Translations under genes and position numbers: made by a program
Notes under the pieces: generated by a model
The model's input: only the letters and a program-made list of their open reading frames with translations
Told to the model about the DNA's origin: nothing
Database searches by the model: none
Shown: positions 6,945 to 26,998 of the stretch, piece by piece
Layout: every line of letters starts with the position of its first letter
Position numbering within the stretch: the first letter of the stretch is position 1
Source: Hyphomicrobiales bacterium
GTDB taxonomy: Bacteria > Pseudomonadota > Alphaproteobacteria > Rhizobiales > Rhizobiaceae
Length of the DNA stretch: 54,236 nt
Direction of reading: 5' to 3'
NCBI GenBank assembly: GCA_900473175.1
Contig: UCKM01000023.1
Span: forward strand, 3,948-58,183

Positions 6945-8615
6945 GTGAACGGTTCTTCGGTCTTGTTGCATCTGGCGGGTGCTGTGGCGTTGCTTCTTTG
7001 GGCAACGCGCATGGTGCGCACCGGTGTCGAGCGTGCCTATGGCGAGCGCATGCGCCAGAGCCTGCGCGGTGTCCTGCACAATCCGCTGCTTGCCGCCGCT
7101 TGGGGCCTGATGCTCTCCATCGCCCTGCAAAGTTCGACGGCGGTGAGCCTGCTTGTCGGCTCCTTCGTCGGCTCCGGCATCGTCAGCGGCATTGCCGGGT
7201 TGATGGCGGTGCGCGGCGCCGAAGTCGGCTCGGCCCTCGTCGTCAAGATCCTTTCCTTCGATCTCACGCTCCTGGTGCCGCTCTGCCTGGTGGCCGGCAC
7301 AGTCATCTTCATGTCGACCGAGCGCAGCAACTGGCGGCAGATGGGCCGTATTCTCATTGGCATCGGCCTCTTGGTGCTGTCGCTCCAAATGACCGGACAG
7401 GCAACCGAGCCCCTGCGCAACAGCGACCTGTTGCCCGTGATCGTCGGTTACCTCGACACCGATCCCGTCACCGCTTTCCTTTTGGCGGCCGTCATGACCT
7501 GGCTGTTCCATTCGAGCATCGCCGCCGTCTTGCTGGTCGTCACATTCGCTTCCCGCGGCCTGATCCAGCCAGAACTCGGCGTCGTCATGATCTGTGGCGT
7601 CAACCTTGGCTCGTCGTTCATCGCCCCCATTTTGACCCGCAATGCGGCGCCGCAAATTCGCATCGTTCCTATGGGCAACCTGTTGATGCGCGGGCTCGGT
7701 TCGATCGTGATCCTGATCCTCTATCTGACCTTCAAGCCATCGATTGCATTCCTCGGCGCCGCGCCGGCCGATCAGGTGATCAATGGCCATATTCTCTTCA
7801 ACATCATCATCCTCCTTGCCGGGCTTCCCCTCTCCCGTCTTGTTCTCAAAGCCACGAAGACTGTCGTCGCCCTCAACGCGCCAACCGAACCGCCCCGGTC
7901 GCTCGACCATACCGAACTCAGTGCTCTGGATGAGAGCGTGCTGGACACGCCGAGCCTTGCCCTTGCCAATGCAACACGCGAGGCAGTTGCCGTTTGCGAG
8001 ACGGTTGAAATCATGCTGCGGCGGATTATCGATCTTTATGAGCATCCGGCACAGGATCGCATCGACGAATTGTCGGCGCTCGATGACAAGGTCGACCGCC
8101 AGCACGCCGCCATCAAGCTCTATCTCGCCAAGCTGACCTCGAGGCAACTGTCGGGCTACGAGATCGCCCGAGCCCGCGAACTGCTCGGCGCCTGCGTCAA
8201 GCTCGAACAGGTCGGAGACATCATCGTGCGCAACATGCTGGCTCTGGTGCAGAAGAAGATGGACCGCAAGCTCAAATTCACCGATGAAGGCTGGCTCGAA
8301 CTCAGCAATTTTCACGCCAAGGTTCTGACCAACGCCCGCATGGCGTTCAACGTCCTCGTTTCACGCGATCGCGAAACGGCGCATCAGCTTGTGCTTGAGA
8401 AAGATCATTTGCGGGATGTGGAAAAGCAGACCAGCGACCGGCATTTTAGCCGCCTGCGCGAGGGAACGCCGCGCAGCCTGGAGACAAGCTCCATCCACCT
8501 TGACACGATCCGCGACCTGAAACAGATCAACTCGCTGCTCGCCTCGATGGCTTATCCGGTGCTCGAAGAACAGGGGCTTTTGAATACGACGCGTCTGCGA
8601 GAATTGCACAGCTGA
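6945..8615 (+). CDS. Na/Pi cotransporter family protein with C-terminal PhoU-like domain
   Basis: This is a sodium-dependent phosphate transporter of the NptA/PF02690 type. The first 300 residues hold about eight membrane segments and two copies of the family's QSSTAV motif region: ALQSSTAVSLLVGS in the first half and WLFHSSIAAVLLVV in the second, where the glutamine is replaced by histidine. The last 200 residues form a helical PhoU-like domain (IDELSALDDKVDRQHAAI). I chose the GTG at 6945 because AGGA lies eight bases upstream and the protein then opens directly into the first helix; an upstream TTG at 6906 would add 13 residues without a ribosome site. The Pho box upstream predicts induction in phosphate starvation. 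It is divergent from dnaG. Confidence 0.9.
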   Translation: MNGSSVLLHLAGAVALLLWATRMVRTGVERAYGERMRQSLRGVLHNPLLAAAWGLMLSIALQSSTAVSLLVGSFVGSGIVSGIAGLMAVRGAEVGSALVVKILSFDLTLLVPLCLVAGTVIFMSTERSNWRQMGRILIGIGLLVLSLQMTGQATEPLRNSDLLPVIVGYLDTDPVTAFLLAAVMTWLFHSSIAAVLLVVTFASRGLIQPELGVVMICGVNLGSSFIAPILTRNAAPQIRIVPMGNLLMRGLGSIVILILYLTFKPSIAFLGAAPADQVINGHILFNIIILLAGLPLSRLVLKATKTVVALNAPTEPPRSLDHTELSALDESVLDTPSLALANATREAVAVCETVEIMLRRIIDLYEHPAQDRIDELSALDDKVDRQHAAIKLYLAKLTSRQLSGYEIARARELLGACVKLEQVGDIIVRNMLALVQKKMDRKLKFTDEGWLELSNFHAKVLTNARMAFNVLVSRDRETAHQLVLEKDHLRDVEKQTSDRHFSRLREGTPRSLETSSIHLDTIRDLKQINSLLASMAYPVLEEQGLLNTTRLRELHS

Positions 8616-8688
8616 CCAGATGAATTTCGGCCAAACAAACGCCATCCCCAAAGCGAGCCGAAACCAACCTGAGCCCTACAAAACTGGC

Positions 8689-8853
8689 TTAATAATCACG
8701 ATGGATATGGGTATTGGATCCGATGAACGCGCCCATCGCGGTGCCGATCAGCAACCCAAGCAATATATTTCCCATCATTGCTTCGCCGACGCCTGCCCCA
8801 ATCGACAGCCCGGCCAGTATTCCGATTATAGTCGACCATCCGTGTTCTTTCAT
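8689..8853 (-). CDS. Small glycine-rich membrane protein (54 residues)
   Basis: The protein starts MKEHGWSTIIGILAGLSIGA, directly behind a strong GGAGG five bases from the ATG, which argues that it is a real gene. It is one or two hydrophobic glycine-zipper-like segments (GLLIGTAMGAFIG) with a short polar His-containing tail. No family is recognised. It lies convergent to the Na/Pi transporter and alone on its strand. It may be a small inner-membrane stress protein, but this is only inferred from its shape. Confidence 0.6.
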   Translation of the reverse strand: MKEHGWSTIIGILAGLSIGAGVGEAMMGNILLGLLIGTAMGAFIGSNTHIHRDY

Positions 8854-9151
8854 GTTCGCCTCCATTGCTTGCAACAATAAACGCGAAAGTGACGCCGCAG
8901 TTCCAAAGTGGGCATCTGATCAAATTCATTTGATCTGTTTTCTTGCGCCGATTGTAAACGCGAACTCAAAGGCTTGCGCGTCGACAGTGGAACAGCAAGG
9001 TTAGACGCCTATCCAATATCCTTCGGATAGCCGGCAAAAAATGGCCGCTACGCAGTGGACTATCGAGATTTTTGAAGTAATTTCAAACATTTGACGGGAT
9101 CGATTTATTGATCAAGATGGCCACAAAGCGTCCTTGGTGGGAGATTCTTGA

Positions 9152-14196: not shown

Positions 14197-14319
14197 AACA
14201 CGGCAAGGTCGACGTGACTTTTTCGGAGTAGCTCGTGTCAGGCGACGCCTTCGGAAAAGCAAACAATGACTTCCAGAACCGATGATCTATAATTGCGTCG
14301 ATTAGAGCGGAAACGTAGC

Positions 14320-14997
14320 ATGCGCATTTTGATCATCGAGGATGACAAGCCCACATTTGACTTCATTGTAAGGGGCTTCAGCGAAGCCGGGCACGTCGCC
14401 GAGGTAATTTCGGATGGGCGAGCCGCCCTCTCGCACGCGACCGGCGAAGGCTATGACGCACTTATCGTCGACAGAATGATTCCCGGTTTGGATGGGCTGG
14501 CACTCGTGAAGGCCCTACGTGCGGCGGGCGTAAAGACGCCTGTGATTTTTTTGACTTCGGTCGGTGGACTTGACGATCGTGTCGAGGGGCTGGAAGCGGG
14601 TGGCGACGATTATCTCGTCAAGCCTTTCGCGTTCTCCGAGCTTGCGGCGCGGGTCAATGCCCTCACCCGGCGTCCGCCCTTCCAAATGGAAAGGAACGTG
14701 ATATCCGTCGATGATCTTGAGGTTGATCTGATGCGACGCACCGTCAAGCGCGCAGGCAAATTTATCGACCTCCAGCCCCGAGAATATCGGCTGCTGGAAG
14801 TGCTCGCCCGCAACGAAGGCCGTATCCTGACGCGCACTATGCTGCTTGAACGCGTCTGGGATTTTCACTTCGATCCGAAGACCAGCGTGGTTGAGACGCA
14901 TATCAGCCGGCTGCGTACCAAGATCGACAAGCCGTTTCCCTATCCGTTGCTCCATACAATCCGCAATACCGGCTATAGCCTGCATGCGCCGCATTAA
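14320..14997 (+). CDS. OmpR/PhoB-family two-component response regulator
   Basis: A 225-residue regulator with an N-terminal receiver domain (acidic pair E8/D9, phospho-acceptor D51 in ALIVDRMIPGLDG, conserved lysine in DDYLVKPFAF) and a C-terminal winged-helix DNA-binding domain (QPREYRLLEVLARNEGRILTR split over two helices, then VVETHISRLRTKID). Start MRILIIEDD is preceded by a moderate AGCGGAAA; the longer frame from 14293 adds nine unsupported residues. The histidine kinase ATG lies inside its last codons, so the pair is translationally coupled. Confidence 0.95.
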   Translation: MRILIIEDDKPTFDFIVRGFSEAGHVAEVISDGRAALSHATGEGYDALIVDRMIPGLDGLALVKALRAAGVKTPVIFLTSVGGLDDRVEGLEAGGDDYLVKPFAFSELAARVNALTRRPPFQMERNVISVDDLEVDLMRRTVKRAGKFIDLQPREYRLLEVLARNEGRILTRTMLLERVWDFHFDPKTSVVETHISRLRTKIDKPFPYPLLHTIRNTGYSLHAPH

Positions 14998-16417
14998 TCT
15001 GCTCAAGAGCACGCCGTTCCGACTGGCGATCATCGTTGCGGCGCTTTTCATCAGTTCATTCCTGGTGGCTGCAGCCGTGACCTACCAATTGTTCAGGAGC
15101 GAGCTCGCAGACCGGCTCGACGCCACGATCCAAGACACCTATTCTGTACTTGCAGATGCCTATGGCGATCGTGATGTCACTGATCTCGTTGAGGCGGTTG
15201 CGAGCCATGCCAATTCGACCTCGGGCGACAACGCAGTCTATTTGCTCCAGTCAAAGGACGGCCAACGCCTATCAGGAAACATCGCGAGTGCGGACGTCCC
15301 GTTGGGCTGGTCGACCGTTGACGGCTCGTTATTGGGTTTTCCCTCCGGTAAGGATTATCGGGTCTATTCCAATAAGGTCGATGACCAGCCGTTGATTGTC
15401 GGACGAAGCTTTGAAGAAAGCCAGGAGTACCTGGAGATCGTTCGCAGCAGCTTCGGCTGGGCAACAATCGCGGTTCTTGCTCTTGCCGTGGCTGGCGGTG
15501 CATTGCTGGCCTACCGCGTGCAACGGCGGTTAGAGGCCATCGCAACAACGATGCGCGATATCGGTTCGGGTAAGCTCGACGCAAGGATTTCGCTTGTTGG
15601 CAATGGGGACGATGTTGATGTCCTTTCCGCCCAGGTCAATGATGCGCTTGGCCGGCTCGCTGCCCTTGTCGAAGGGATGCGGCAAGTCAGCACCGATATT
15701 GCTCACGATCTGAAGACACCGCTGCAGAGATTGTCGCTAACCATCGATCAGGCAATTGACAAGCTTTCCGCGGGCGGCGACGGCAACGCAGAACTGCTTG
15801 AGGCAAAGGAGGAAAGCACTCAAATCAACGCCACGTTCGACGCGCTTTTGCGCATCGCCCAGATCGAGGCCGGTGCACGACGCGCGCGCTTTCGTGCCAT
15901 TGACATGCAACAGTGCGTTGCAACCATCGCCGAAATCTATACGGACGTCGCAGCGGACAACGGTCAAGAGCTTGTCCTGAGCGAGACGACCTGCGACCCG
16001 ATGCTGGTTGATGGCGACGAAGAACTTCTGGTGCAGCTTTTTGCAAACGCTGTTGAGAACGCGATCCGACACTGCCCACAAAGCGCGCGCATTGAGATCG
16101 GTGCCAGTCTTATCGCTGATAGAGTCAGGGTCGAGGTTGCGGACAACGGACCAGGAATACCGGAGAGCGAGCGCGAGAAGGTGTTCCAGCGACTCTACCG
16201 CCTCGACAAAAGCCGGACAACGCCCGGAACGGGTCTCGGATTGAGTTTGGCCAAAGCGATTGCCGATCTTCATTACGCCCAAATTATCATGCTGGATAAC
16301 CGCCCCGGCTTGCGCGTTGAAGTCAATTTTCCCATCTCGAAACGTGCAAGGACGCGACACGGCGCTACTTCGCCTGTCTCGAGATCAGCTGAAGGTACGG
16401 TAGATCATGAATTCTAG
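14984..16417 (+). CDS. Membrane-bound sensor histidine kinase
   Basis: This 477-residue kinase starts at ATG 14984, overlapping the regulator's stop by 14 bases. Residues 14-34 and 158-178 are membrane helices that bracket a periplasmic sensor of about 120 residues. A HAMP linker follows, then the dimerisation domain with H241 (DIAHDLKTPLQRL) and the ATPase domain with the N-box (NAVENAIRHC), G1 (VADNGPGIP) and G2 (GTGLGLSLAKAIADLH). The organisation is that of EnvZ/PmrB-type sensors. Ligand is unknown. Its stop overlaps the start of the phosphatase gene. Confidence 0.94.
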   Translation: MRRINLLKSTPFRLAIIVAALFISSFLVAAAVTYQLFRSELADRLDATIQDTYSVLADAYGDRDVTDLVEAVASHANSTSGDNAVYLLQSKDGQRLSGNIASADVPLGWSTVDGSLLGFPSGKDYRVYSNKVDDQPLIVGRSFEESQEYLEIVRSSFGWATIAVLALAVAGGALLAYRVQRRLEAIATTMRDIGSGKLDARISLVGNGDDVDVLSAQVNDALGRLAALVEGMRQVSTDIAHDLKTPLQRLSLTIDQAIDKLSAGGDGNAELLEAKEESTQINATFDALLRIAQIEAGARRARFRAIDMQQCVATIAEIYTDVAADNGQELVLSETTCDPMLVDGDEELLVQLFANAVENAIRHCPQSARIEIGASLIADRVRVEVADNGPGIPESEREKVFQRLYRLDKSRTTPGTGLGLSLAKAIADLHYAQIIMLDNRPGLRVEVNFPISKRARTRHGATSPVSRSAEGTVDHEF

Positions 16418-17006
16418 CCAAGGCTCCAGCTTCTTGGACAACGTGCTGCGGCATGCGGTGAAAGGTTTCGCCGCGATCCTTGTTCTGGCGGTTGCCATTG
16501 CAAGCTACTACTGCGTCATGCGGCTCGGCGGCAATTTTCACACGACAATTCCCGGTGAACTCTACCGCTCCGCTCAGCTCAGTCCCACGCAGCTGGCGTC
16601 ATATCATAGCGCTTACGGCATCAAGACGATTGTCAATCTGCGCGGTGAACACGTCGGCCAGGCTTGGTACGACAAGGAGGTTGCAGCGTCATCCCGGCTG
16701 GGGATCAACCACTTTGACTTCCCAATGTCGTCCCGCAAGCAACTGTCCCGGGACGAAGCCATGGCGCTCATTTCGATACTGGAGAAGGCGGAGAAGCCGA
16801 TCCTCATCCATTGCGAAGGCGGTGCCGATCGTAGTGGGTTGGCCGCCGCGCTCTACGTAGCAGCATTGGCTCATGGGAGCGAAAAGCAGGCTGAAGCGCA
16901 GATGTCCATCCAGTATGGACATATCTCGCTATCTCCCAATCCAGCCTTCGCAATGGACCGCACATTCGAAGCGCTTGAACCATGGCTGGGCTTTCCGCAT
17001 TCCTAA
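16407..17006 (+). CDS. Membrane-anchored dual-specificity/tyrosine phosphatase-like protein
   Basis: A 199-residue protein with one N-terminal membrane helix (residues 20-37) and a cysteine-phosphatase domain outside the membrane. The active-site loop is HCEGGADRSG with C136 and R142, the classical HCx5R motif; an upstream GELYRSAQLS stretch and TIVNLRGE match the PF13350/DSP-like bacterial family, similar to proteins annotated as tyrosine phosphatase or phosphatidylglycerophosphatase-like. The start lies 11 bases inside the kinase gene, so it belongs to the same operon. It may dephosphorylate a lipid or protein phosphate in the envelope; lipid A modification clusters often hold such phosphatases. 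Confidence 0.85.
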   Translation: MNSSQGSSFLDNVLRHAVKGFAAILVLAVAIASYYCVMRLGGNFHTTIPGELYRSAQLSPTQLASYHSAYGIKTIVNLRGEHVGQAWYDKEVAASSRLGINHFDFPMSSRKQLSRDEAMALISILEKAEKPILIHCEGGADRSGLAAALYVAALAHGSEKQAEAQMSIQYGHISLSPNPAFAMDRTFEALEPWLGFPHS

Positions 17007-17179
17007 GACCGGTGCCGTTCAAGGTTGGGGGTTAGAACCTGGCGACGATTTTCTATCGATTGTGGTTGTCTCGGCCGTTGATCGTGATTCTACAGAACCT
17101 TACCGTAACTTATAGATCGAATTAGTTCGCTTTCAGCCGGGGCGTTCAGCCTGTTGTCAGCATCCCCGCAAAAAACGTG

Positions 17180-18844
17180 ATGGAGATTATCCCAGCGCGC
17201 GGGCACATGGTGACGGCAACTTTTCAACAAATTCCTTCTAGCGGCACTTTTGAGACAGGCCAACTTCCGGTTGATAATCAAAACTATGCCTCGGTGGACG
17301 CGGTTATCACACGAAATGGTGTGTTGATCGCGGTCTGCTTGAGCATCGTCTTGATCTTGGTCGCCGTCCTGCTCCGCCCCTTGATACCAATTGATGAAAC
17401 GCGGTACATGACCGTCGCTTGGGAAATGTCCCACACGGGTGACTGGCTTGTCCCCCACCTTAACGGTGAGCCGTACAGTCATAAGCCACCGATGCTTTTC
17501 TGGTTGATCAATGCCGCATGGAAAATGGCTGGCTCACCCAGCGAACTTGTCGCCCGGTTGGTTCCTGCCGCCTCCTTACCGTTGAATATTCTTCTGACAT
17601 TCATCCTTGGAAGCAAGATTGCGCGCCGGAGCCATGCCTCGATTGCCGCATTGGTCTTGCTCGGTTTCGCGGCTTTTTGCCTGTTCTCTTCGCTCGTATT
17701 GTTCGACCAGCTACTTGCCGCGGCGAGCTTGTTGGGTGTCATTGGTCTGGTCGACGCAGCAAAGGGAAAAGTCTGGCGAGGCTTTTTGCTTTTTGGTTCT
17801 GCTATTGGATTTGGACTTCTGGCCAAAGGCCCGGCAATTTTCATTCACGTTTTGCCCGCGGCTTTGCTGGGTCCGCTTTGGGTGCCTACGAAAACGCGAT
17901 GGTCCATGTGGTATCTGTCGCTATTGGGCGCTATTGCGTTAGGCGCCGGCATAGGACTTGCGTGGGCCATCCCCGCCGCCCGCTCTGGCGGAGCAGAATA
18001 TGCGAATATGATTCTTTGGGGACAGACGGCCGGGCGGATCGTACATTCGTTTGACCATGCGCAACCGTTCTGGTTTTACGCCGCCGTATCGCCCCTCCTG
18101 CTGTTTCCCTGGGTCTTGAGTCGTAACGTTTGGGCTGCGGCACTGGGCAAATCCGGGATCCCAAAGGACCGCTTGCAACGGCTTCCATTGATCGTCGCAC
18201 TGGCGAGTTTCGTATTTTTCAGCGCAATCTCAGGCAAGCAAATCTACTATCTGGTTCCTGCCCTGCCTTTCGTGGCAATTGCAATTGCCCAAATCTTGGT
18301 TAACCGGCAAGGGGTGAAATTGAGCGAACCGGGCTTTGCTGTACTCTTCCTCACTATTGGGTTGGCGGTGTTCGCTTTTGCACTGTTACCGCACAAGGTT
18401 TCGACTGCGCAGATCGCGATAAACCCATGGATCGGCGGGCTTTTTCTCACGATGGCGGCCATAGCCTGGCTGCTGCGCCGCAATCTGTTTGCCGTTACCA
18501 TTTTCACGACCTGCGGATTGTTTTTTGGAGCACATCTGGCAGGCTATGTCGGAGCCTTCGGTCCGTTCGACCTGAACCGGCTGGGCAAACAATTGCGCGA
18601 TCACCCGAACGCACAGGTTGCATACAGCGGCGGCTACAAGGGACAGATCGGCTTCCTTGGTCGCCTTGACAACCCGGTGGTTGAGGTCGACCGTTCGAAT
18701 GCGGCTGCCTGGCTAAGGGTACACAAGGATGGCATTCTCGTCGCATCCGGCCATGATTCTGCGAAAATCGTCCCCGAGCGCGCACCCGACGAGACGCAAC
18801 CCTATCGGGGAAATGAAATCAGTATGTGGCTGCCGAAAAAATAG
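17180..18844 (+). CDS. ArnT-like (GT83/PMT family) membrane glycosyltransferase
   Basis: A 554-residue protein with about eleven membrane helices. The first periplasmic loop shows the family's catalytic signature DETRYMTVAWEM followed by GDWLVPHLNGEPYSHKPP, as in ArnT, which transfers a sugar from undecaprenyl phosphate to lipid A. A soluble C-terminal part (about residues 460-554) follows the last helix. No strong ribosome site exists; ATG 17180 and ATG 17207 are both possible. It lies 173 bases after the phosphatase gene and runs in the same direction, so regulation by the neighbouring two-component system is plausible. The transferred sugar cannot be read from sequence. Confidence 0.85.
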   Translation: MEIIPARGHMVTATFQQIPSSGTFETGQLPVDNQNYASVDAVITRNGVLIAVCLSIVLILVAVLLRPLIPIDETRYMTVAWEMSHTGDWLVPHLNGEPYSHKPPMLFWLINAAWKMAGSPSELVARLVPAASLPLNILLTFILGSKIARRSHASIAALVLLGFAAFCLFSSLVLFDQLLAAASLLGVIGLVDAAKGKVWRGFLLFGSAIGFGLLAKGPAIFIHVLPAALLGPLWVPTKTRWSMWYLSLLGAIALGAGIGLAWAIPAARSGGAEYANMILWGQTAGRIVHSFDHAQPFWFYAAVSPLLLFPWVLSRNVWAAALGKSGIPKDRLQRLPLIVALASFVFFSAISGKQIYYLVPALPFVAIAIAQILVNRQGVKLSEPGFAVLFLTIGLAVFAFALLPHKVSTAQIAINPWIGGLFLTMAAIAWLLRRNLFAVTIFTTCGLFFGAHLAGYVGAFGPFDLNRLGKQLRDHPNAQVAYSGGYKGQIGFLGRLDNPVVEVDRSNAAAWLRVHKDGILVASGHDSAKIVPERAPDETQPYRGNEISMWLPKK

Positions 18845-19226
18845 GCCTGAGCAAACATATTCACGCCATTGCCTCGTCCCTATTCGATTGCTCGTAGATT
18901 ATGGGGGCTACCCATTCAAGCGAGGTGGTGCCGCCGATACCTCCGACAGGCAGAGCGCCCATGCCCTACCTTAGATGTCCTCACCCGGCCGATGATGTCG
19001 CGACGTCGGTAGTGATGTCGCCAAACTCGGCGACGATCTCATCCATAAGGGAGTGCCCAATTAAGCGGCACAACAGCTAAGCACAATGATTTATTTCATT
19101 ACGTATTGCGAAGAATCTTCTTATCTGGGATCGTTTAAGCAATAGAGGAGGAAATATAAAAGAATTCAAGTGGAGGAGACGGGCAGGAAACATAGTTGAA
19201 GTAATCTCTGTTAAGGAGCAATGACT
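18845..19226. other. Intergenic region before the glucan-synthase-type operon
   Basis: The left 200 bases are GC-rich and, read on the minus strand, contain a coding-like stretch (LMDEIVAEFGDITTD, later LPVGGIGGTTSLEW) broken by stops, possibly a gene remnant. The right 150 bases are AT-rich with several GGAGGA runs and form the leader of the operon. No complete gene is seen. Confidence 0.35.
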
Positions 19227-20771
19227 ATGATTTCACAAGACCGAAAAACCCCGCTTGCGGGTCGACCGACCTCCATTCGAATCGCCTCCTATGGTGTTCT
19301 TGGGATCCTGTCGACCGTTTTCACAACGTCAGTCATGCCGCCGATATTTACCTCGACGTCAGTTCGAGCCGTCGTCAACGCTCCTGTCACGTCGATAACG
19401 TCCCCAATCAGTGGTACTGTCACTAATGTACAGGCAATGCGGGATCAATTTCCTGAAGGACCCGTTGCGGTCGTCGAGAATGAACGCGTCGATCGCTCCA
19501 CCCTTATCGGACTTCAAGTCGAGTCGACGTCACTTCGAAACGAATTGACGCTCAAGCAGGGCAACCTTGAGGATTACCGCAGGCGCGTCAAGGACCTTGA
19601 AACAGAGCTCGCAACCCAGCAGAGTGCTCTAATTGCCCGCACGAGCAATGCCCTCCGTGACGCTGAAGTCTCGCTCAACCTCGCCACATACTCGGCCGAG
19701 AACGAAAAACTCGATTCCGAACGCAAGCTCCGGCTGGTTTCGAAGGGCGTGTTTCCTGGAACCAAGGACGAACTGATCAATAAGATCAAATGGGAGGATG
19801 CCAAGGTCGAGGGGGCCAAGATCAAAGTGGCGATGTCGACGGATGACCTCAACTTTGCGCAGCGAGGCATCTATGTGGGCGACAATAACCAGTATCTGCA
19901 GAACCTCCAGAACGAAATACGCGCGCGAACAGCCGATATTTCGCAAATCGACATGCAGATTGCGTCGATAAGAACACGCCTTGCTGAGCTCCAAAACTTC
20001 ACTGACGCCGAGAACAGGCGCATCAACAAATTGGCGAGGGCAGAAGTCGGCGTTGCACCGTCCGAAAAGATTTACAAGGCCATTGCGCAAGCCGGAAAAC
20101 AGGTGAATGCGGGCGATACCCTTGTTCAATCCGTAGATTGCAGCGACGCCTTCGTAGTGGCCATCTTTTCGGAACGCCAAGCACAGGCGTTATCGATCGG
20201 ATCGAAAGTTCTCGTCAAGTCGGATGCATGGCAGCAGCCAGTCCATGGAAGGGTAAGCCGGCTCCTGCCGCGCACCACCGACCGCGTTGATCTCGATTAC
20301 GCGGTGCCGTTCCCGCCGACGGAGCGACGCGAACTCTACGCGTTCATCGTGCCGGAAACTTCGGACGCTGACACCGCAAAGAGCTTCTGTTCGGTCGGCA
20401 CATGGGTGGAGGTAGAACGGCCATGGGACTGGCCGCGCAAGGCCGGCAACTATCTAGTCGCGGCGACGGCAACGCTCAAGGAGGAGGTCAACGATCTGGA
20501 GATCGCATTGACAAGAAGCGTTTCCAGGCTCGCGCTGACCGTGCCATCTTTCTTAAACCGGGCTGCTGCCGCCGAGGCAAACGTTCATGCAAGCGCAGCA
20601 GGGACATCGCCACTCGATATGGCACGACGGGTAACGGCTCAATGCTCGGAGCGAGAATGCCGGGCGCCTGCCTATCTCTTCAAGGACCAGGTAGAGACGC
20701 CGACGACCACATTCAGCCGCGAGCGTCCTATCACGGATACACGGACGATATTTGAAGCGCGATGGAATTGA
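19227..20771 (+). CDS. HlyD-type membrane fusion protein of an exopolysaccharide synthase operon
   Basis: A 514-residue protein with one N-terminal membrane helix (about residues 20-40), a split biotinyl-lipoyl-like region (NAPVTSITSPISGTVTNV and, after the hairpin, KQVNAGDTLVQSVDCSD), a long alpha-helical coiled coil (residues 95-275) and a beta-barrel C-terminal half. This is the membrane fusion protein plan seen in BgsB of the Sinorhizobium mixed-linkage glucan operon and in alginate Alg44-like proteins. The start at 19227 is chosen because AAGGAG is eight bases upstream; ATG 19221 is too close to it. It is the first of three tightly spaced genes and should form the periplasmic part of the polymer exporter. 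Confidence 0.8.
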   Translation: MISQDRKTPLAGRPTSIRIASYGVLGILSTVFTTSVMPPIFTSTSVRAVVNAPVTSITSPISGTVTNVQAMRDQFPEGPVAVVENERVDRSTLIGLQVESTSLRNELTLKQGNLEDYRRRVKDLETELATQQSALIARTSNALRDAEVSLNLATYSAENEKLDSERKLRLVSKGVFPGTKDELINKIKWEDAKVEGAKIKVAMSTDDLNFAQRGIYVGDNNQYLQNLQNEIRARTADISQIDMQIASIRTRLAELQNFTDAENRRINKLARAEVGVAPSEKIYKAIAQAGKQVNAGDTLVQSVDCSDAFVVAIFSERQAQALSIGSKVLVKSDAWQQPVHGRVSRLLPRTTDRVDLDYAVPFPPTERRELYAFIVPETSDADTAKSFCSVGTWVEVERPWDWPRKAGNYLVAATATLKEEVNDLEIALTRSVSRLALTVPSFLNRAAAAEANVHASAAGTSPLDMARRVTAQCSERECRAPAYLFKDQVETPTTTFSRERPITDTRTIFEARWN

Positions 20772-20772
20772 G

Positions 20773-21999
20773 ATGCGTCTGCGAAAGATCGCGGGCGCGC
20801 TGATTATTGGTGTTCTGGCAACATCGGCGCATGGAGCGGACCGTCAATCGGGGTTGGCTCTTTGTGCGGCGATGGCAAAAGTGATGGTACAGCCCCCGGC
20901 CGAAAATGGTGCGTTTCTGCCGAGCTACCTGTCCTCAGAAAGCGGCGAAGCGCTTCCGCAGCCAATGCAGGACACCGCTTTTGTCTACGACAATGCACTG
21001 GCTGTGATGGCTTTTATTGCTTGCGATCAGGTGGACCGTGCGCGCGCGATCGGCGATGCATTTCTTGCCGCCGCTTTGAAGGATCGTTTCTACAAGGATG
21101 GCCGCCTCCGCAACGCCTATCGTTCAGGTGTTGTCGCGGAAAAAATCATATTGCCGGGTTGGTGGGATGATACTGCCAATCGCTGGGCGGAAGACGAGTA
21201 TCAGATAAGCACCGCTTCAGGAAATGTCGCCTGGGCCGCGCTGGCCCTTCTCCAACTTAACGAAAAGACATCCGACTCCAAATATTTGGCAGGCGCGGAA
21301 CGCCTCGCAGACTGGCTGGCGGCATTGGACCGAGATGATGAGAACCCAGGGATTGCCGGCGGCTATTACGGCTTTGAACCGAACGCAGTCCGCATCGAGT
21401 GGATGTCCACAGAGCATAACATCGACACGTTGGCGGTGGCCCAATGGCTCTGGTTGAAAACCGAGAATCCGCAATGGCAGCATCTTGCCGAGAGTAGCCT
21501 GCGCTTCCTGACCGCAATGTACCGCGAGAAGCGCCATTTTCTGATTGGGACGGACATTGCCGGAAGGCCGGTCGATGGGGCCGACATCTGGCTGGACGTA
21601 CAGGTCTGGCCAGTGTTGGCTGTACCCCCCTCACAACGTCTCGCCTCCTCGGAGGAAACCATGAAGTTACTCGACGCGAGCTTCGCAGTTCCGGGTGGAT
21701 ACGACTTCAACAGCGATCGCGATGGCCTATGGGTTGAAGGAACGGCGCAAGTCGCCTTGATGCTGGGTATAGCGGGCGACCGTGCGCGGGCGTCAAGCCT
21801 CATCGACAGCAGTCTTCGATACGTCGATCCGGGCAGTGGCTGGCTTTTCGCTACCCCTAAGGCACAGCTTTCAACAGGCCTCACAATCGACGCCATCGGT
21901 CAGGGGAGCGCCTTTACGTACCATCATTGGCCGCATCTTGGAGCGACGGCGTGGACCGTCCTCGCCGCGATGGACTTCAACCCCTTCCAACCCAACTGA
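20773..21999 (+). CDS. Periplasmic alpha/alpha-toroid protein, probable glycan hydrolase or lyase
   Basis: A 408-residue protein with a signal peptide (MRLRKIAGALIIGVLATSAHG). The mature part is a chain of helical hairpins typical of six-hairpin (alpha/alpha)6 glycosidases: YDNALAVMAFIACDQ, TASGNVAWAALALLQLNE, MSTEHNIDTLAVAQWLWL and DGLWVEGTAQVALML, each a helix with aromatic/acidic residues that could line a sugar cleft. Conserved-looking acids are E and D in STEHNID and the D/E pair in DGLWVEG. It starts one base after the previous stop codon and lies directly before the synthase, the position held by endoglucanase BcsZ in cellulose operons. The GH/PL family is not recognised, so its activity is inferred from fold and context. 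Confidence 0.7.
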   Translation: MRLRKIAGALIIGVLATSAHGADRQSGLALCAAMAKVMVQPPAENGAFLPSYLSSESGEALPQPMQDTAFVYDNALAVMAFIACDQVDRARAIGDAFLAAALKDRFYKDGRLRNAYRSGVVAEKIILPGWWDDTANRWAEDEYQISTASGNVAWAALALLQLNEKTSDSKYLAGAERLADWLAALDRDDENPGIAGGYYGFEPNAVRIEWMSTEHNIDTLAVAQWLWLKTENPQWQHLAESSLRFLTAMYREKRHFLIGTDIAGRPVDGADIWLDVQVWPVLAVPPSQRLASSEETMKLLDASFAVPGGYDFNSDRDGLWVEGTAQVALMLGIAGDRARASSLIDSSLRYVDPGSGWLFATPKAQLSTGLTIDAIGQGSAFTYHHWPHLGATAWTVLAAMDFNPFQPN

Positions 22000-22005
22000 G
22001 GCGAC

Positions 22006-23973
22006 ATGTTTTTCAATGCTGACAATGACGCTGCCGGAGTTCTGCTGTTCGATGTCGGCATTGGGTTGATGTTCATCGCCTTCGCGAAACTTGCCGACCG
22101 GACTCGCCTCCTGGACAGGCTGCTGTTCGGCGGCATGACAATGCTCTCACTTGTGCTTTACCTGTCTTGGCGGTGGCTTGATACGCTGCCGGATCTTGAG
22201 CTGACCGGAGCCAGCCTGTGGCAGCATGGGTACTTTACCTTCGAGGCGATCTCGATTGTCTATGCGCTGGGTTCGATCATCATACTCTTTCGAAGTTCCG
22301 ACTGGACGAACGAGGCCGATCTTCGCCAAGGGCAGATGCAAATGACGGGAATTTACCCCTCCGTCGATGTCTTCATCTGTACCTATAACGAACCGATAAA
22401 CATCCTCGAGAAATCGGTGATAAGCGCGAACGCCATGGACTATCCGAAGCTGCGCGTATTCGTGTGCGACGACACGCGCCGCCCTGAAATCAGGGAATAT
22501 TGTTCGCGGGTCGGCGTGAACTATTTAACCCGTCCCGACAACCAGCATGCAAAGGCGGGAAATCTCAACAACGCTCTGCAGGCGACCAACGAACCAAACG
22601 ATCGTTCGGACTTGATCATGGTTCTTGATGCCGATTTCGCCCCGCAAGAAAACTTTCTCATGCGGGTTGTCGGCTTGTTCGGCGACGAAAGCGTCGGGCT
22701 CGTCCAGACGCCGCAGTTTTATTTCAACTCTGATCCGATCCAGCACAATCTTGGCGTTCGATCATGCTTCGTCGATGATCAGAGGGTGTTTTTTGACACT
22801 TTCCAGCCCGCCAAGGATGCGGTGGGTTGTGCATTTTGTGTGGGAACGAGTTTCGTCGTACGCCGGTCTGCGCTCAACGAGATGGGCGGATTTCCCCACG
22901 AAGCACTTTCGGAAGACATGCTCCTCACATACAGGCTGATGGAACGCGGCTACATAACACGGTGGCTGAATGAGAAGTTGAGCGTCGGGCTTTCTGCCGA
23001 GGGGATTCCTGAGTACATTACCCAGCGGACGCGCTGGTGTCTTGGCACGATTCAGATCGGACTTCTCAGAGACGGTCCGTTGTGGCTTGGCAACTTCACG
23101 CTGACGCAGCGTCTGCACTATGTCCACGGCCTTCTGTGCTGGCTGTCGAAACCGTTCATTCTCTGCATGCTGTTTGCGCCATCGATCTACTGGCTGTTCG
23201 ACGTGACGGCGATCCAGGCCGACGAGATCGTCTTCATGAAGTATGGAATCTCGGCCCTTTTCGTGTTCTGGAGTTATTCGTCATGGATTTCGGCAGGGCG
23301 AACACTACCGCTTTTCACCGAGGTTACGCATGCAATCACGGCGCTGCCGATCACCATTGCTCTCTGGCAGGCGGTGCGCCAACCTTTCGGGCGACCGTTC
23401 AAGGTGACAGAAAAAGGTGGCGACCGATCAACGATCCGGATCCATGCACCCACAGCGATTTTCTTCGGCTTGGTTACGTTGCTTTCGGCGATTTCCGTTG
23501 CCACAACGGTATTCGTCTGGAGTTCACCGACGGAATTCTCGCAGCGCGATTGCCTCAACCTCGTGTGGTCTGCTTTCTCGATGCTTATTGCCTTCGTCAG
23601 CCTTCTCGTCTGCATAGAACTGCCCCGGTTCGGCCAGGAGGAATTGATCAAGGTCGCGGTCCCTGCCACGTTGCGGCTCGGTGACGTCGTGCGTCAGGTG
23701 GAAATCGAAGCGATGTCGACCGAGCACGTTGTGATCAGTAATTTAGACGCGCTGGGCAGTGGAGACAAAGCACTCCACCTTGCTGGGGTCGGCTGGATAA
23801 AGATCGACCTGAACGGTGAAAATTCCAGAAACGCCTTCCGAATCTCGCCGGGTTTCGAGCAGCATAACGCGATCCTTCGCACGCTCTTTCGCCAAGCGCC
23901 CAACAATGTTGCAAGTACGGGAACGCTAGGCCAATCCATGCTGACGCTCTGCAAACGCGCATTCATTGGCTGA
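22006..23973 (+). CDS. BcsA-like processive GT2 beta-glycan synthase
   Basis: A 655-residue inner-membrane synthase. Two or three N-terminal helices precede the GT-A domain (residues 115-350) with all family-2 processive motifs: DVFICTYNEP (119-130), CDD at 154-156, HAKAGNLNNAL (181-191), DAD at 208-210, FCVGTSFVVRR (277-287), SED at 302-304 in place of TED, and QRTRW at 340-344. Four to five further helices form the translocation channel. The last 75 residues look like a PilZ barrel lacking the RxxxR arginines. Family relatives are cellulose BcsA, curdlan CrdS and mixed-linkage BgsA. GAGG lies four bases before the ATG, seven bases after the previous gene. It probably makes a beta-glucan; linkage cannot be told. 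Confidence 0.88.
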   Translation: MFFNADNDAAGVLLFDVGIGLMFIAFAKLADRTRLLDRLLFGGMTMLSLVLYLSWRWLDTLPDLELTGASLWQHGYFTFEAISIVYALGSIIILFRSSDWTNEADLRQGQMQMTGIYPSVDVFICTYNEPINILEKSVISANAMDYPKLRVFVCDDTRRPEIREYCSRVGVNYLTRPDNQHAKAGNLNNALQATNEPNDRSDLIMVLDADFAPQENFLMRVVGLFGDESVGLVQTPQFYFNSDPIQHNLGVRSCFVDDQRVFFDTFQPAKDAVGCAFCVGTSFVVRRSALNEMGGFPHEALSEDMLLTYRLMERGYITRWLNEKLSVGLSAEGIPEYITQRTRWCLGTIQIGLLRDGPLWLGNFTLTQRLHYVHGLLCWLSKPFILCMLFAPSIYWLFDVTAIQADEIVFMKYGISALFVFWSYSSWISAGRTLPLFTEVTHAITALPITIALWQAVRQPFGRPFKVTEKGGDRSTIRIHAPTAIFFGLVTLLSAISVATTVFVWSSPTEFSQRDCLNLVWSAFSMLIAFVSLLVCIELPRFGQEELIKVAVPATLRLGDVVRQVEIEAMSTEHVVISNLDALGSGDKALHLAGVGWIKIDLNGENSRNAFRISPGFEQHNAILRTLFRQAPNNVASTGTLGQSMLTLCKRAFIG

Positions 23974-24204: not shown

Positions 24205-25026
24205 TCAATCCTTCGTTTCGAAAGCCTCCGGTTCATATTCTCGCAGGCCCTGCTCCTTGGAGAATAGGACGCAGGGGCCATTCGAACCACGAGGGTCGTA
24301 TGCAAAGCCTTTCGCTGCCAAAGCCTGCGTAATTTCACGGATGCCTGGCAATCCGTAGAGGTGATCGTGCAGTTCAAGGAAGACCCGCTCAATGCCAGGA
24401 AGCTCAGATCTTCCAAGTAGATCTCGTTCAGCGCCCTCAATGTCCATGACGAGAACGTTAATGGCATGATCTGCAATAAAACTATCAATGTTTGTTGACG
24501 CCAGTGATATTTCGCGTTGGTAAGGACCTTGATTTTTGTCCATGGACGACATCCAAAGATCCTGTCGAACATAGAACGGAACGGTACGAGGTTCACCCGC
24601 CGCCAACAATCCCTGCGACAGAACGACATTGCCAAGATTGTTTGCATTGATCACACGATGTGCAAGTGCCGCTGTCGATGGATTTGCTTCGAATGACCAC
24701 ACTCGGACGCCCGGAACCTTTGCGATAAGCGACGTAATGACGCCGATTCCTGTCCCCAGTTCCAGCACCCGATCATTCAACCTTACGGCCTTGAAGACCC
24801 ACTTGGCCTCTTTCGCTTCGTAGCTGCCACTTGTAAGAGCCCGCCAGATAGCTGGTGAAACCTCGTCTGGTGTCAGAGGTACCGTAATCCCATGAACGGT
24901 CAGTAAATCCAAACCAAACTCCTTTGGATGCTTATGAGGTTGCGGCCGCCAGATCGCTGTGTTCAAGAATGACAATGCGGAATTGGGCCGGAACGGCTCA
25001 CCCTCTGCCAAATACTGCTTGGGCAT
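24205..25026 (-). CDS. FkbM-family SAM-dependent methyltransferase
   Basis: A 273-residue methyltransferase. The SAM-binding glycine loop is VLELGTGIGVITSLIA, followed by the acidic end of strand 2 (VWSFEANPSTAALA) and the FkbM hallmark block LVMDIEGAERDLL with a downstream VFLELHDHLYGLPG. FkbM enzymes O-methylate sugars, polyketides or glycans. The gene overlaps the end of the GGDEF-EAL gene by 29 bases in the same direction, so the two are co-transcribed and likely coupled. Being opposite to a glucan synthase operon, it may decorate the same polymer; this is inference. Confidence 0.85.
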   Translation of the reverse strand: MPKQYLAEGEPFRPNSALSFLNTAIWRPQPHKHPKEFGLDLLTVHGITVPLTPDEVSPAIWRALTSGSYEAKEAKWVFKAVRLNDRVLELGTGIGVITSLIAKVPGVRVWSFEANPSTAALAHRVINANNLGNVVLSQGLLAAGEPRTVPFYVRQDLWMSSMDKNQGPYQREISLASTNIDSFIADHAINVLVMDIEGAERDLLGRSELPGIERVFLELHDHLYGLPGIREITQALAAKGFAYDPRGSNGPCVLFSKEQGLREYEPEAFETKD

Positions 25027-26998
25027 CGACCAGACGTTCGTATTCCATCAAGCCATCGTAATCGACAACTTGGCGATGATGCTCCAACCGCGCTGCAGGT
25101 ACGGGCATGCCCATCAAGTAGCCTTGAACCTGCTCGCATCCAACTTGTTTGACGCATGCGAATTGCTCTTCGGTCTCGATGCCCTCAGCGATCGTGGTCA
25201 TCCCGAGGCTTCGACCGACTCCTGTCACCAATTCAACGATGGCGAAGGCATCTGCGCGGGTTGTAACGTCGCGGACGAAAGAGCGATCGATTTTAATTTT
25301 GTCGAAGGGAAAACTCCTGAGGCTGCCAAGCGACGAATATCCGGTGCCAAAGTCGTCCATCGCTATCTGGATGCCAACTGCCTTCAGTTCCGTCAAAGTG
25401 TCAAGCGTCTGTTCATTCTTGTCCAACAGCACAGATTCGGTGATCTCAAGCTCCAGTCGATTCGGATCGAGACCACTTTGAGTGAGTATGGTAACGACGC
25501 TCTGAATGAGATTTCGACTGCGGAACTGTACTGGCGACAGATTGACCGCAACTTTGAGCGACCTTGGCCAACGGGCCGCCTCCAGGCAAGCCGTTCTTAA
25601 AACCCACTCCCCCAATTCATGGATTAGGCCGATATTTTCGGCGACCGGAATGAATTCTGAAGGGGGAACTTGGCCGCGTATCGGATGGAACCACCGCAGG
25701 AGGGCTTCGTAGCCACAAATCTCGCGCGTAATTGTATTCACTTGCGGTTGGTAAAATAGTTCCAACTCTCCATTCCGCAGCGCCTGCTTGAGGTCAGCCT
25801 CGAAAGATTTTTTCTCCGTCAATCTTGTTTGCATCTGCGATTGGAAGACACACGCATGGCCGGAGCCGAGAGACTTTGCCTCGTAAAGCGCAAGGTCCGC
25901 GTGCTTGAACAGTTCATCCGCGTCGGGTTCCGCTTCCGATATGGCAACGCCGACGCAAGTACCGATTTTGATCTCCCGTTCACTGACCTGGTAGGGAAAA
26001 CTGATTTCATCCATCACGTGACGAGCAAAATCATAAGCCTGTATCTCGCTCAGGCCCGCGGTCAGGATCGCGAACTCATCGCCGCCCAACCGGCAGATGA
26101 GATCACCGTCGCGACTGAGTTTTGTGAGGCGACTTGCGACCGCTTGGAGGAGACCGTCGCCCACGTCATGACCTAGCGTATCGTTAACATCCTTGAATCC
26201 ATCGAGATCAAGGAGAAAGATCACAGCAGTTGGTCCGCCAGCGATCGCTGTTTTCAACCGCGCTTCAAGGTCCGTGCGAAACAAAATACGATTGGGGAGC
26301 CCGGTGAGCGCATCATGGTGGGCAACATGCTTCAGACGATAGTTCTGTAGCTTCAATTCCCCTGACGCCTCGCGAAGGTTATCCGTCAAGTCCTTCATCT
26401 TGCGGTGAGCACCGTCCAGGAGGCTGTTGTGGCGCAGGAGCAGAACAACAAGCCCCACCCCGCAGAAAATCAACCCGCCCGCAAGCCCGGTATAGATGAG
26501 ATGGAGCTGCCGTAATTCTGCCTGAGCAGCGTCTATCAGTCCCACATCGAACTCAACCGCAGTGGATGCAAGCGCAGTCATCGACGCATCCAAGGCAGCC
26601 ATCGATTCCAGTATGGTCTTGAGACCTTCGGAATCGAGGGCGTCGAGCCGCTGATCAAGCGTCTCGAGAACATTGGTAAGCTTTAGAAGCAGCTCGCGTC
26701 GCTGAGGGTCTTGCTCGACGAAAGCATGGAGATTGCCCTGCTTCAGAAGTTCCATTCGGCCAATCATGATATCAAGACGGAGGCGGACCTCATCGCGATT
26801 AACATCGTCCATACCCAGAGCATAGGCGGCCAAGCGATGTTCGAGTCTCATATATTCAGAGACCGTCTGACCAACAGCCCAGGAGTCATTATAGCGGGCA
26901 AACTTCTGCAGCGCTGTTTGCCGCTCGGCAATGACATAGGCGATGTATGCCGTCGCCACGACAAAGCAACAGATAATGATCCCGAGAAACCGCTTCAC
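24998..26998 (-). CDS. Membrane GGDEF-EAL protein (diguanylate cyclase/phosphodiesterase)
   Basis: A 666-residue bifunctional c-di-GMP enzyme with a GTG start. Helices at about residues 4-24 and 170-188 bracket a 145-residue helical periplasmic sensor. The GGDEF domain has an intact GGDEF at 305-309, and an RxxD inhibitory site (R296, D299) at the right spacing. The EAL domain is also intact: EAL at 431-433, N487, E518, DDFG at 548-551, K569, AEGIE at 604-608 and QGYLMG at 625-630. Both activities are therefore possible. It starts nine bases after the periplasmic molybdopterin-fold gene and overlaps the methyltransferase gene. The neighbouring synthase makes it a likely regulator of polysaccharide production. 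Confidence 0.95.
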   Translation of the reverse strand: MKRFLGIIICCFVVATAYIAYVIAERQTALQKFARYNDSWAVGQTVSEYMRLEHRLAAYALGMDDVNRDEVRLRLDIMIGRMELLKQGNLHAFVEQDPQRRELLLKLTNVLETLDQRLDALDSEGLKTILESMAALDASMTALASTAVEFDVGLIDAAQAELRQLHLIYTGLAGGLIFCGVGLVVLLLRHNSLLDGAHRKMKDLTDNLREASGELKLQNYRLKHVAHHDALTGLPNRILFRTDLEARLKTAIAGGPTAVIFLLDLDGFKDVNDTLGHDVGDGLLQAVASRLTKLSRDGDLICRLGGDEFAILTAGLSEIQAYDFARHVMDEISFPYQVSEREIKIGTCVGVAISEAEPDADELFKHADLALYEAKSLGSGHACVFQSQMQTRLTEKKSFEADLKQALRNGELELFYQPQVNTITREICGYEALLRWFHPIRGQVPPSEFIPVAENIGLIHELGEWVLRTACLEAARWPRSLKVAVNLSPVQFRSRNLIQSVVTILTQSGLDPNRLELEITESVLLDKNEQTLDTLTELKAVGIQIAMDDFGTGYSSLGSLRSFPFDKIKIDRSFVRDVTTRADAFAIVELVTGVGRSLGMTTIAEGIETEEQFACVKQVGCEQVQGYLMGMPVPAARLEHHRQVVDYDGLMEYERLVDAQAVFGRG

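Follow-up and report, generated by a model that had tools for sequence, protein, structure and literature searches.

A crd-type operon with the gene order crdA-crdC-crdS in a Rhizobiaceae genome and the apparent exchange of crdC in Agrobacterium-type loci

The operon and the naming of its genes

A three-gene operon at positions 19,227 to 23,973 of a 54,236-nucleotide stretch (the window) of contig UCKM01000023.1, from a Hyphomicrobiales bacterium of the family Rhizobiaceae, was found to be a crd-type operon, related to the curdlan operon of Agrobacterium, with the variant order crdA-crdC-crdS. The crdA-type open reading frame (ORF) lies at 19221-20771 (516 residues, with an in-frame ATG at 19227 that fits the start first proposed), the crdC-type ORF at 20773-21999 (408 residues) and the crdS-type ORF at 22006-23973 (655 residues, a processive GT2 beta-glucan synthase). 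All three are on the plus strand, with gaps of 1 base between crdA and crdC and 6 bases between crdC and crdS, and these coordinates agree with the original prediction, which had described a glucan-synthase operon; that description holds. The ORF tool lists the middle gene at 20752-21999 from a TTG, but the ATG at 20773 is the likelier start, since it lies 1 base past the crdA stop (TGA-G-ATG) and gives 408 residues, the length of the protein's own database entry, P0001. When one genome of each species was scanned with an alignment of the middle protein, 334 stretches were found to encode a relative, and among the best 80 loci the three genes (A, C and S) stood together on one strand in 74, with the middle protein as the search bait; the association is therefore not attributed to chance.

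The middle gene is, by homology, crdC. According to the literature, the curdlan operon of Agrobacterium has the order crdA-crdS-crdC (PMC3293034), curdlan is lost when a transposon is inserted in crdC (PMC10819609), and the function of CrdC was given as unknown in a paper of 2023. Primers designed for strain ATCC 31749 were mapped onto two Agrobacterium-type A-S-C loci: L099, from a genome of the window's family, with a CrdS that shares 81% identity with P0148 of Agrobacterium, and L108, on A. tumefaciens plasmid pAt15-1187-1-2a1. The q-crdC pair (PMC4327974, with a stated product of 248) was found to span exactly 248 bases, in the correct orientation, inside gene C of both loci, 9 of the 40 primer bases being mismatched in L099 and 10 in L108, a fit that none of 500 shuffled pairs per locus equalled. 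The crdA start primer of the same source fell on the start codon of gene A with 1 and 2 mismatches. From the position of crdSP-1, a product of the stated 446 bases would reach exactly to the crdS start codon in L099 and miss it by 4 bases in L108. Five of the twelve primers tested from PMC4327974 (q-crdC-1, q-crdC-2, crdP1-1, crdSP-1 and, in L108, crdP-2) support the assignment. Over 384 residues, among them the motifs STEHN, DRDGxWxEGTAQ and PHxGATAW, the window's middle protein shares 42% identity with gene C of L099, and it is named from this homology to a gene in which crdC primers map at exact product length. The original prediction had held that no described bgs or crd locus has such a middle gene, and this claim falls, as the gene corresponds to the third gene of crdASC. 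The crdC gene itself was already known; the interest that is left lies in the CrdC enzyme, whose function is unexplained in the literature, and in the swapped crdC described below.

The first gene matched the Pfam family HlyD_3 at 1.9e-7, over the cut-off, and has an N-terminal hydrophobic segment as judged by eye; it is a crdA-type HlyD-like periplasmic adaptor (membrane fusion protein). Its mean identity to CrdA of seven A-S-C loci is 50%, and in the crdA tree the window and the A-S-C rows fall in one 14-row clade (support 100). The third gene matched Pfam GT2 families at 1.2e-22. As the original prediction stated, every processive GT2 motif is kept: in a 15-sequence alignment the residues DD 155/156, DxD 208/210 (D208-A-D210, 22627-22635, plus strand), ED 303/304 and Q340, R343 and W344 of the QxxRW motif (23023-23037, plus strand) are invariant. 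In a tree of 45 synthases, made up of a chosen subset of loci and named references, the window synthase was placed in a 13-row clade with three Agrobacterium-type CrdS proteins (Shimodaira-Hasegawa-like approximate likelihood ratio 100), and BgsA (R. etli p42e and S. meliloti pSymB) and BcsA (the window genome's own and that of Pararhizobium) were found apart on long branches. The long outgroup branches meet, which makes their mutual order unsafe, and the 13-row clade is independent of that. The phylogeny thus bears out the expectation that this is not a standard cellulose synthase. Its mean identity to CrdS of the seven A-S-C loci is 66%, and its relatives include a Rhizobium freirei 'Beta 1,3 glucan synthase catalytic subunit' and a 654-residue Agrobacterium protein with 65% identity. 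The crdS primers of PMC3293034 map with a spacing of 223 bases in L099 and in L108, and they are equally spaced in the window synthase gene, with matches at 22733 and 22936 (3 and 5 mismatches).

Gene order, ancestry of crdC and distribution

The A-C-S order of the window is the commoner one, being present in 70 of the best 80 loci against four with A-S-C; the other six encode C without A or S. The seven A-S-C rows form a single clade (support 100) that lies inside the A-C-S rows of both the crdS and the crdA tree, where they adjoin the window's group (14 rows together, support 100), and by parsimony A-C-S is apparently the ancestral order and the textbook A-S-C order derived. Gene order is treated here as a variant and not as a defining feature of a crd operon. 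The crdC tree differed, the A-S-C rows being placed outside the window's group, among loci of the R. mongolense type (15 rows, support 99; 100/99 in the careful tree). Forcing A-S-C and window-type crdC together cost 92 log-likelihood units (approximately unbiased (AU) test, p 5.6e-9), whereas in the crdS tree the penalty for joining A-S-C and R. mongolense-type rows was 313 units, and in the crdA tree (L055 left out) it was 187. Taken singly, the two halves of crdC also placed A-S-C with the R. mongolense type, the window grouping being rejected more weakly (p 0.02 and 0.03). The mean identities agree: for L099, identity to the R. mongolense type and to the window type, respectively, is 54% and 42% with crdC, 24% and 50% with crdA, and 45% and 63% with crdS. 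On these trees the A-S-C lineage has a xenologous crdC, since crdA and crdS group with those of the window and crdC does not. The Agrobacterium-type operons would go back to an ancestor that lost its original crdC, between crdA and crdS, and acquired a foreign one behind crdS, once or twice.

Compared with crdASC of Agrobacterium sp. ATCC 31749 and C58, the window operon is alike in its HlyD-like CrdA, its CrdS, its CrdC homologue and its compact layout on one strand, and it differs in gene order and in having a CrdC of another lineage. The polarity and commonness of the two orders, the xenology of crdC and the fold of CrdC with its invariant acidic residues seem to be new within the open-access literature; no published account of crdC xenology or of the order switch was found in open-access papers, a scope outside which the original 1999 crd paper falls. 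The textbook crdASC arrangement is thus suggested to be derived, with a swapped crdC, and the swap makes natural CrdC variants usable to ask what CrdC must recognise.

Within the window's family, a CrdS-like protein (E <= 1e-150) was found in 12 of 394 genomes, and C adjoins it in all 12, the window's genome included. A homologue of crdC was present in five of 20 genomes of the genus and in 17 of 385 in a class-wide sample, the window's own counted in both. The other 16 class-survey loci encode no A or S in the roughly 1.4 kb covered on either side (roughly 0.7 kb on one flank of L138), and when six orphan genomes were searched whole, five had no CrdS-like protein at E <= 1e-40 and the sixth gave only a 31% match. 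The best 80 loci are therefore biased to synthase-linked copies, and the wider CrdC family also occurs without a synthase. Orphan relatives do not form one clade (four changes in the tree), which points to repeated gains and losses of CrdC beside the synthase. Relatives with no synthase next to them were seen in other Alphaproteobacteria (L045, L063, L073, L075, L082, L083 and L126-L142), and CrdC matches were present on Azospirillum plasmids, with distant ones on one Streptomyces and one Kitasatospora plasmid (33% and 28% identity). Neighbours of the orphan genes are mixed, and a GH3 gene is next door only in L142/L168 among the 17 class-survey loci; in L168 (6505-10277) the crdC-like gene and the GH3 gene overlap by 4 bases, hinting that the CrdC family acts on glycans. 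In the Bradyrhizobium locus L042, two crdC copies were found (4962-6179 and 7899-9149), one of them just upstream of crdA.

Fold and proposed role of CrdC

The middle protein matched no Pfam and no NCBIfam model, and its best PDB profile match was 3k7x (E 0.0018), partial over about 100 residues. An AlphaFold2 model (mean predicted local distance difference test score, pLDDT, 92.4) has 12 main helices arranged as six hairpins, and its top structural matches in Foldseek are (alpha/alpha)6 sugar-active enzymes, so that CrdC is confidently modelled as an (alpha/alpha)6 carbohydrate-active fold and is a probable glucan-active enzyme. A probable Sec signal peptide, MRLRKIAGALIIGVLATSAHGA (20773-20838, plus strand), was judged by eye, and together with the helices it agrees with the secreted six-hairpin protein first proposed. 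With residues counted from the TTG at 20752, the candidate active-site residues, named by conservation, are E221-H222-N223-x-D225 of the STEHNxD motif (21412-21426, plus strand) and D324-x-x-W327-x-E329 of the DGxWxEGTAQ motif (21721-21738, plus strand). E221, N223 and D225 are present in 85 of 85 rows and H222 in 84, all four also in six of six orphans; the residues of the second motif and an acidic pair, E147-D148 (21190-21195, plus strand), are invariant in all 85 rows and all six orphans. Altogether, 11 acidic or histidine positions are fixed in the 85 rows, and ten of these also in the six orphans. Among 39 CrdC homologues, weak Pfam matches (E <= 0.05) were obtained to GH127 (24), GH76 (8), AGE (7), GH88 (4) and GH9 (3), and these suggest a common fold and not family membership. 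By sequence CrdC was assigned to none of GH8, AGE (the cellobiose 2-epimerase superfamily) and GH15, the profile-profile probabilities being 0.1%, 10% and 2% with small alignments of 2, 8 and 3 sequences; for GH8, moreover, PF01270 matched neither the window protein nor, at the same threshold, the 39 homologues. The likeness to BcsZ drawn in the original prediction is sensible as an analogy of role, but the fold does not single BcsZ out: a P. putida endo-1,4-glucanase, which we take to be a GH8 BcsZ, was at Foldseek rank 37, and CrdC had no sequence match to the window genome's own BcsZ.

From the established gene identities, order, predicted fold, conservation and phylogeny, we infer a polymer linkage, an export route and an activity for CrdC. 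CrdS, in the inner membrane, would make a linear beta-glucan from uridine diphosphate glucose, most likely (1->3)-linked (curdlan), and pass it through a channel of its own; the HlyD-like adaptor CrdA, with its anchor in the same membrane, would line or bridge the periplasmic route; and CrdC would be exported and work on the glucan as a periplasmic (alpha/alpha)6 carbohydrate-active enzyme. By analogy with BcsZ in cellulose and AlgL in alginate, which process their own polymers, CrdC may cut or trim misplaced or nascent chains in the periplasm so that export is not jammed. The Alg8-Alg44-AlgL system likewise has a GT2 synthase, an HlyD-like co-polymerase and a periplasmic alpha-toroid enzyme, AlgL being a lyase on uronic acids, unlike the role proposed for CrdC. 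The reading as a whole, with CrdS synthesis, CrdA bridging and CrdC processing in a crd-type operon, is considered probable. A bolder proposal, put forward tentatively, is that CrdC represents a glycoside-active enzyme family not described before, an (alpha/alpha)6 enzyme of the periplasm without which curdlan is not exported and which can be exchanged between synthase lineages. In the lineage underlying curdlan genetics, the copy at the ancestral position, with crdA before it and crdS after it, would have disappeared and a foreign one would have taken over downstream of crdS. The window locus and its relatives provide testable roles for CrdA as an HlyD-type adaptor and for CrdC as a toroid enzyme acting on glycans, for which candidate residues are named, and if CrdC does cut beta-1,3-glucan it would offer a handle on curdlan chain length and yield.

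Several observations weigh against these proposals. The folds nearest CrdC act on alpha-linkages or isomerise sugars, so that the fold gives no pointer to a beta-1,3-glucanase, and two entries titled squalene-hopene cyclase were among the 50 structural matches (ranks 44 and 49); with no family match and only the partial one to 3k7x, hydrolysis and any linkage specificity are putative. The orphan relatives in five of six genomes without CrdS suggest that the CrdC family is not curdlan-specific. The A-S-C rows are not one clade in the crdC tree, although a single clade was not rejected (p 0.26), which makes one or two replacements possible, and the AU hypotheses were named after the trees had been seen. 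Curdlan loss in crdC mutants is stronger than the defect reportedly found in bcsZ mutants, so that a clearing role may be too weak. Finally, seven of the twelve primers tested from PMC4327974 gave no or poor support: q-crdA-1/-2, q-crdS-1/-2, crdP-1 and crdA395-2 matched neither L099 nor L108 where expected, and crdSP-2 was absent from L099 and had 6 mismatches in L108, with a product of 450 instead of 446.

The locus had originally been read on the Sinorhizobium model, as a bgsBA-like operon for mixed-linkage (1,3;1,4)-beta-glucan to which a trimming enzyme has been added. An HlyD-like protein does adjoin a BcsA-like synthase as in bgsBA of S. meliloti and R. etli, and linkage is unreadable from sequence. 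The bgsBA model did not survive and is very improbable: the synthase groups with CrdS (support 100) and outside the BgsA clade, CrdS shares 30% identity with BgsA of R. etli compared with 65% with an Agrobacterium CrdS, CrdA is 20% identical to BgsB compared with 42% to CrdA of L099, and the bgs locus lacks crdC, as no homologue of the middle gene was found among the annotated neighbours of R. etli bgsBA and the middle protein matched 43 plasmid records, of which p42e, the plasmid of that locus, is not one. A cellulose operon with an unusual BcsZ is scarcely credible, even though bcsABZ likewise joins a GT2 synthase to a gene for a secreted (alpha/alpha)6 glycan enzyme, relatives of CrdS are often labelled 'cellulose synthase' in source annotation and CrdS matches the cellulose synthase model TIGR03030 at 2e-100; the score of 337 is below the cut-off of 699, the three-gene unit has no BcsB gene, Pfam found no PilZ in CrdS, and the middle protein has no match to GH8, the family of BcsZ. 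Cellulose is accounted for elsewhere in the window's genome by a separate operon (contig C26, 119000-137000) with a PilZ-bearing BcsA and a GH8 BcsZ by Pfam (PF01270, 1.3e-48), next to BcsN-, BcsB- and TPR-like genes named by position. That the synthase is related to CrdS but makes another beta-glucan, the crd family being wide and only its Agrobacterium branch tied to curdlan, is improbable: the R. mongolense-type, Bradyrhizobium/Methylobacterium and Burkholderiales groups have only 45-49% mean CrdS identity to the window, and to our knowledge no product has been described for them, but the window shares its 14-row crdA and crdS clade, and the 66% mean CrdS identity given above, with the Agrobacterium-type rows.

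The remaining explanation concerns CrdC, which might be a non-catalytic part of the curdlan export complex, structural, glucan-binding or chaperone-like, with a toroid fold. The essentiality of crdC for curdlan, as stated in PMC10819609, is more than a trimming enzyme would imply, and the gene adjoins crdS in all 12 family genomes with a CrdS-like synthase. Against this stand the fixed acidic and histidine positions, largely kept in the orphans, the occurrence of orphans without a synthase, the substitution of a distant CrdC in the A-S-C lineage and the one operon with GH3, and a purely structural CrdC is held to be rather unlikely; a catalytic, glucan-processing CrdC is preferred.

Cyclic di-GMP and neighbouring genes

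PilZ was not matched by Pfam in CrdS of the window or of L099, whereas the window genome's own BcsA carries it. When ten further CrdS-type proteins were compared with Pfam, PilZ was found in four of four from Burkholderiales and in none of six from Alphaproteobacteria. The motifs RxxxR and D/NxSCNG are present in the C-terminal part of CrdS in all 15 Burkholderiales rows among 84 (L015, L032, L033, L035, L036, L040, L049, L052, L055, L061, L068, L070, L078, L080 and L084); the alphaproteobacterial L017 and L023 match both loose patterns, L017 being without PilZ by Pfam. Burkholderiales curdlan-type synthases are thus predicted to be under direct control by cyclic dimeric guanosine monophosphate (c-di-GMP), which was probably lost in the alphaproteobacterial lines. 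Such a loss fits the regulation of curdlan reported so far, which is transcriptional according to PMC10819609. BgsA is described in PMC9495663 as binding c-di-GMP through its own C-terminal domain.

Upstream of the operon (14293-18844), the window encodes a two-component system, a tyrosine-phosphatase-like protein and an ArnT-like protein, which had no match in the other loci compared at E <= 1e-20, and a promoter scan upstream of the operon stayed at chance level. An FkbM methyltransferase and a GGDEF-EAL c-di-GMP enzyme (24205-26998, minus strand) converge on the 3' end of the operon, though CrdS has no PilZ match. Of seven flanking proteins compared outside the window's genome at the same threshold, only the GGDEF-EAL protein was matched. 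One relative lies about 3.6 kb from the operon in L043, and the other is in the Burkholderiales locus L084 (3722-5791, minus strand), where it is separated from crdA by about 0.7 kb on the upstream side and encoded on the other strand, and where CrdS has the PilZ motif.

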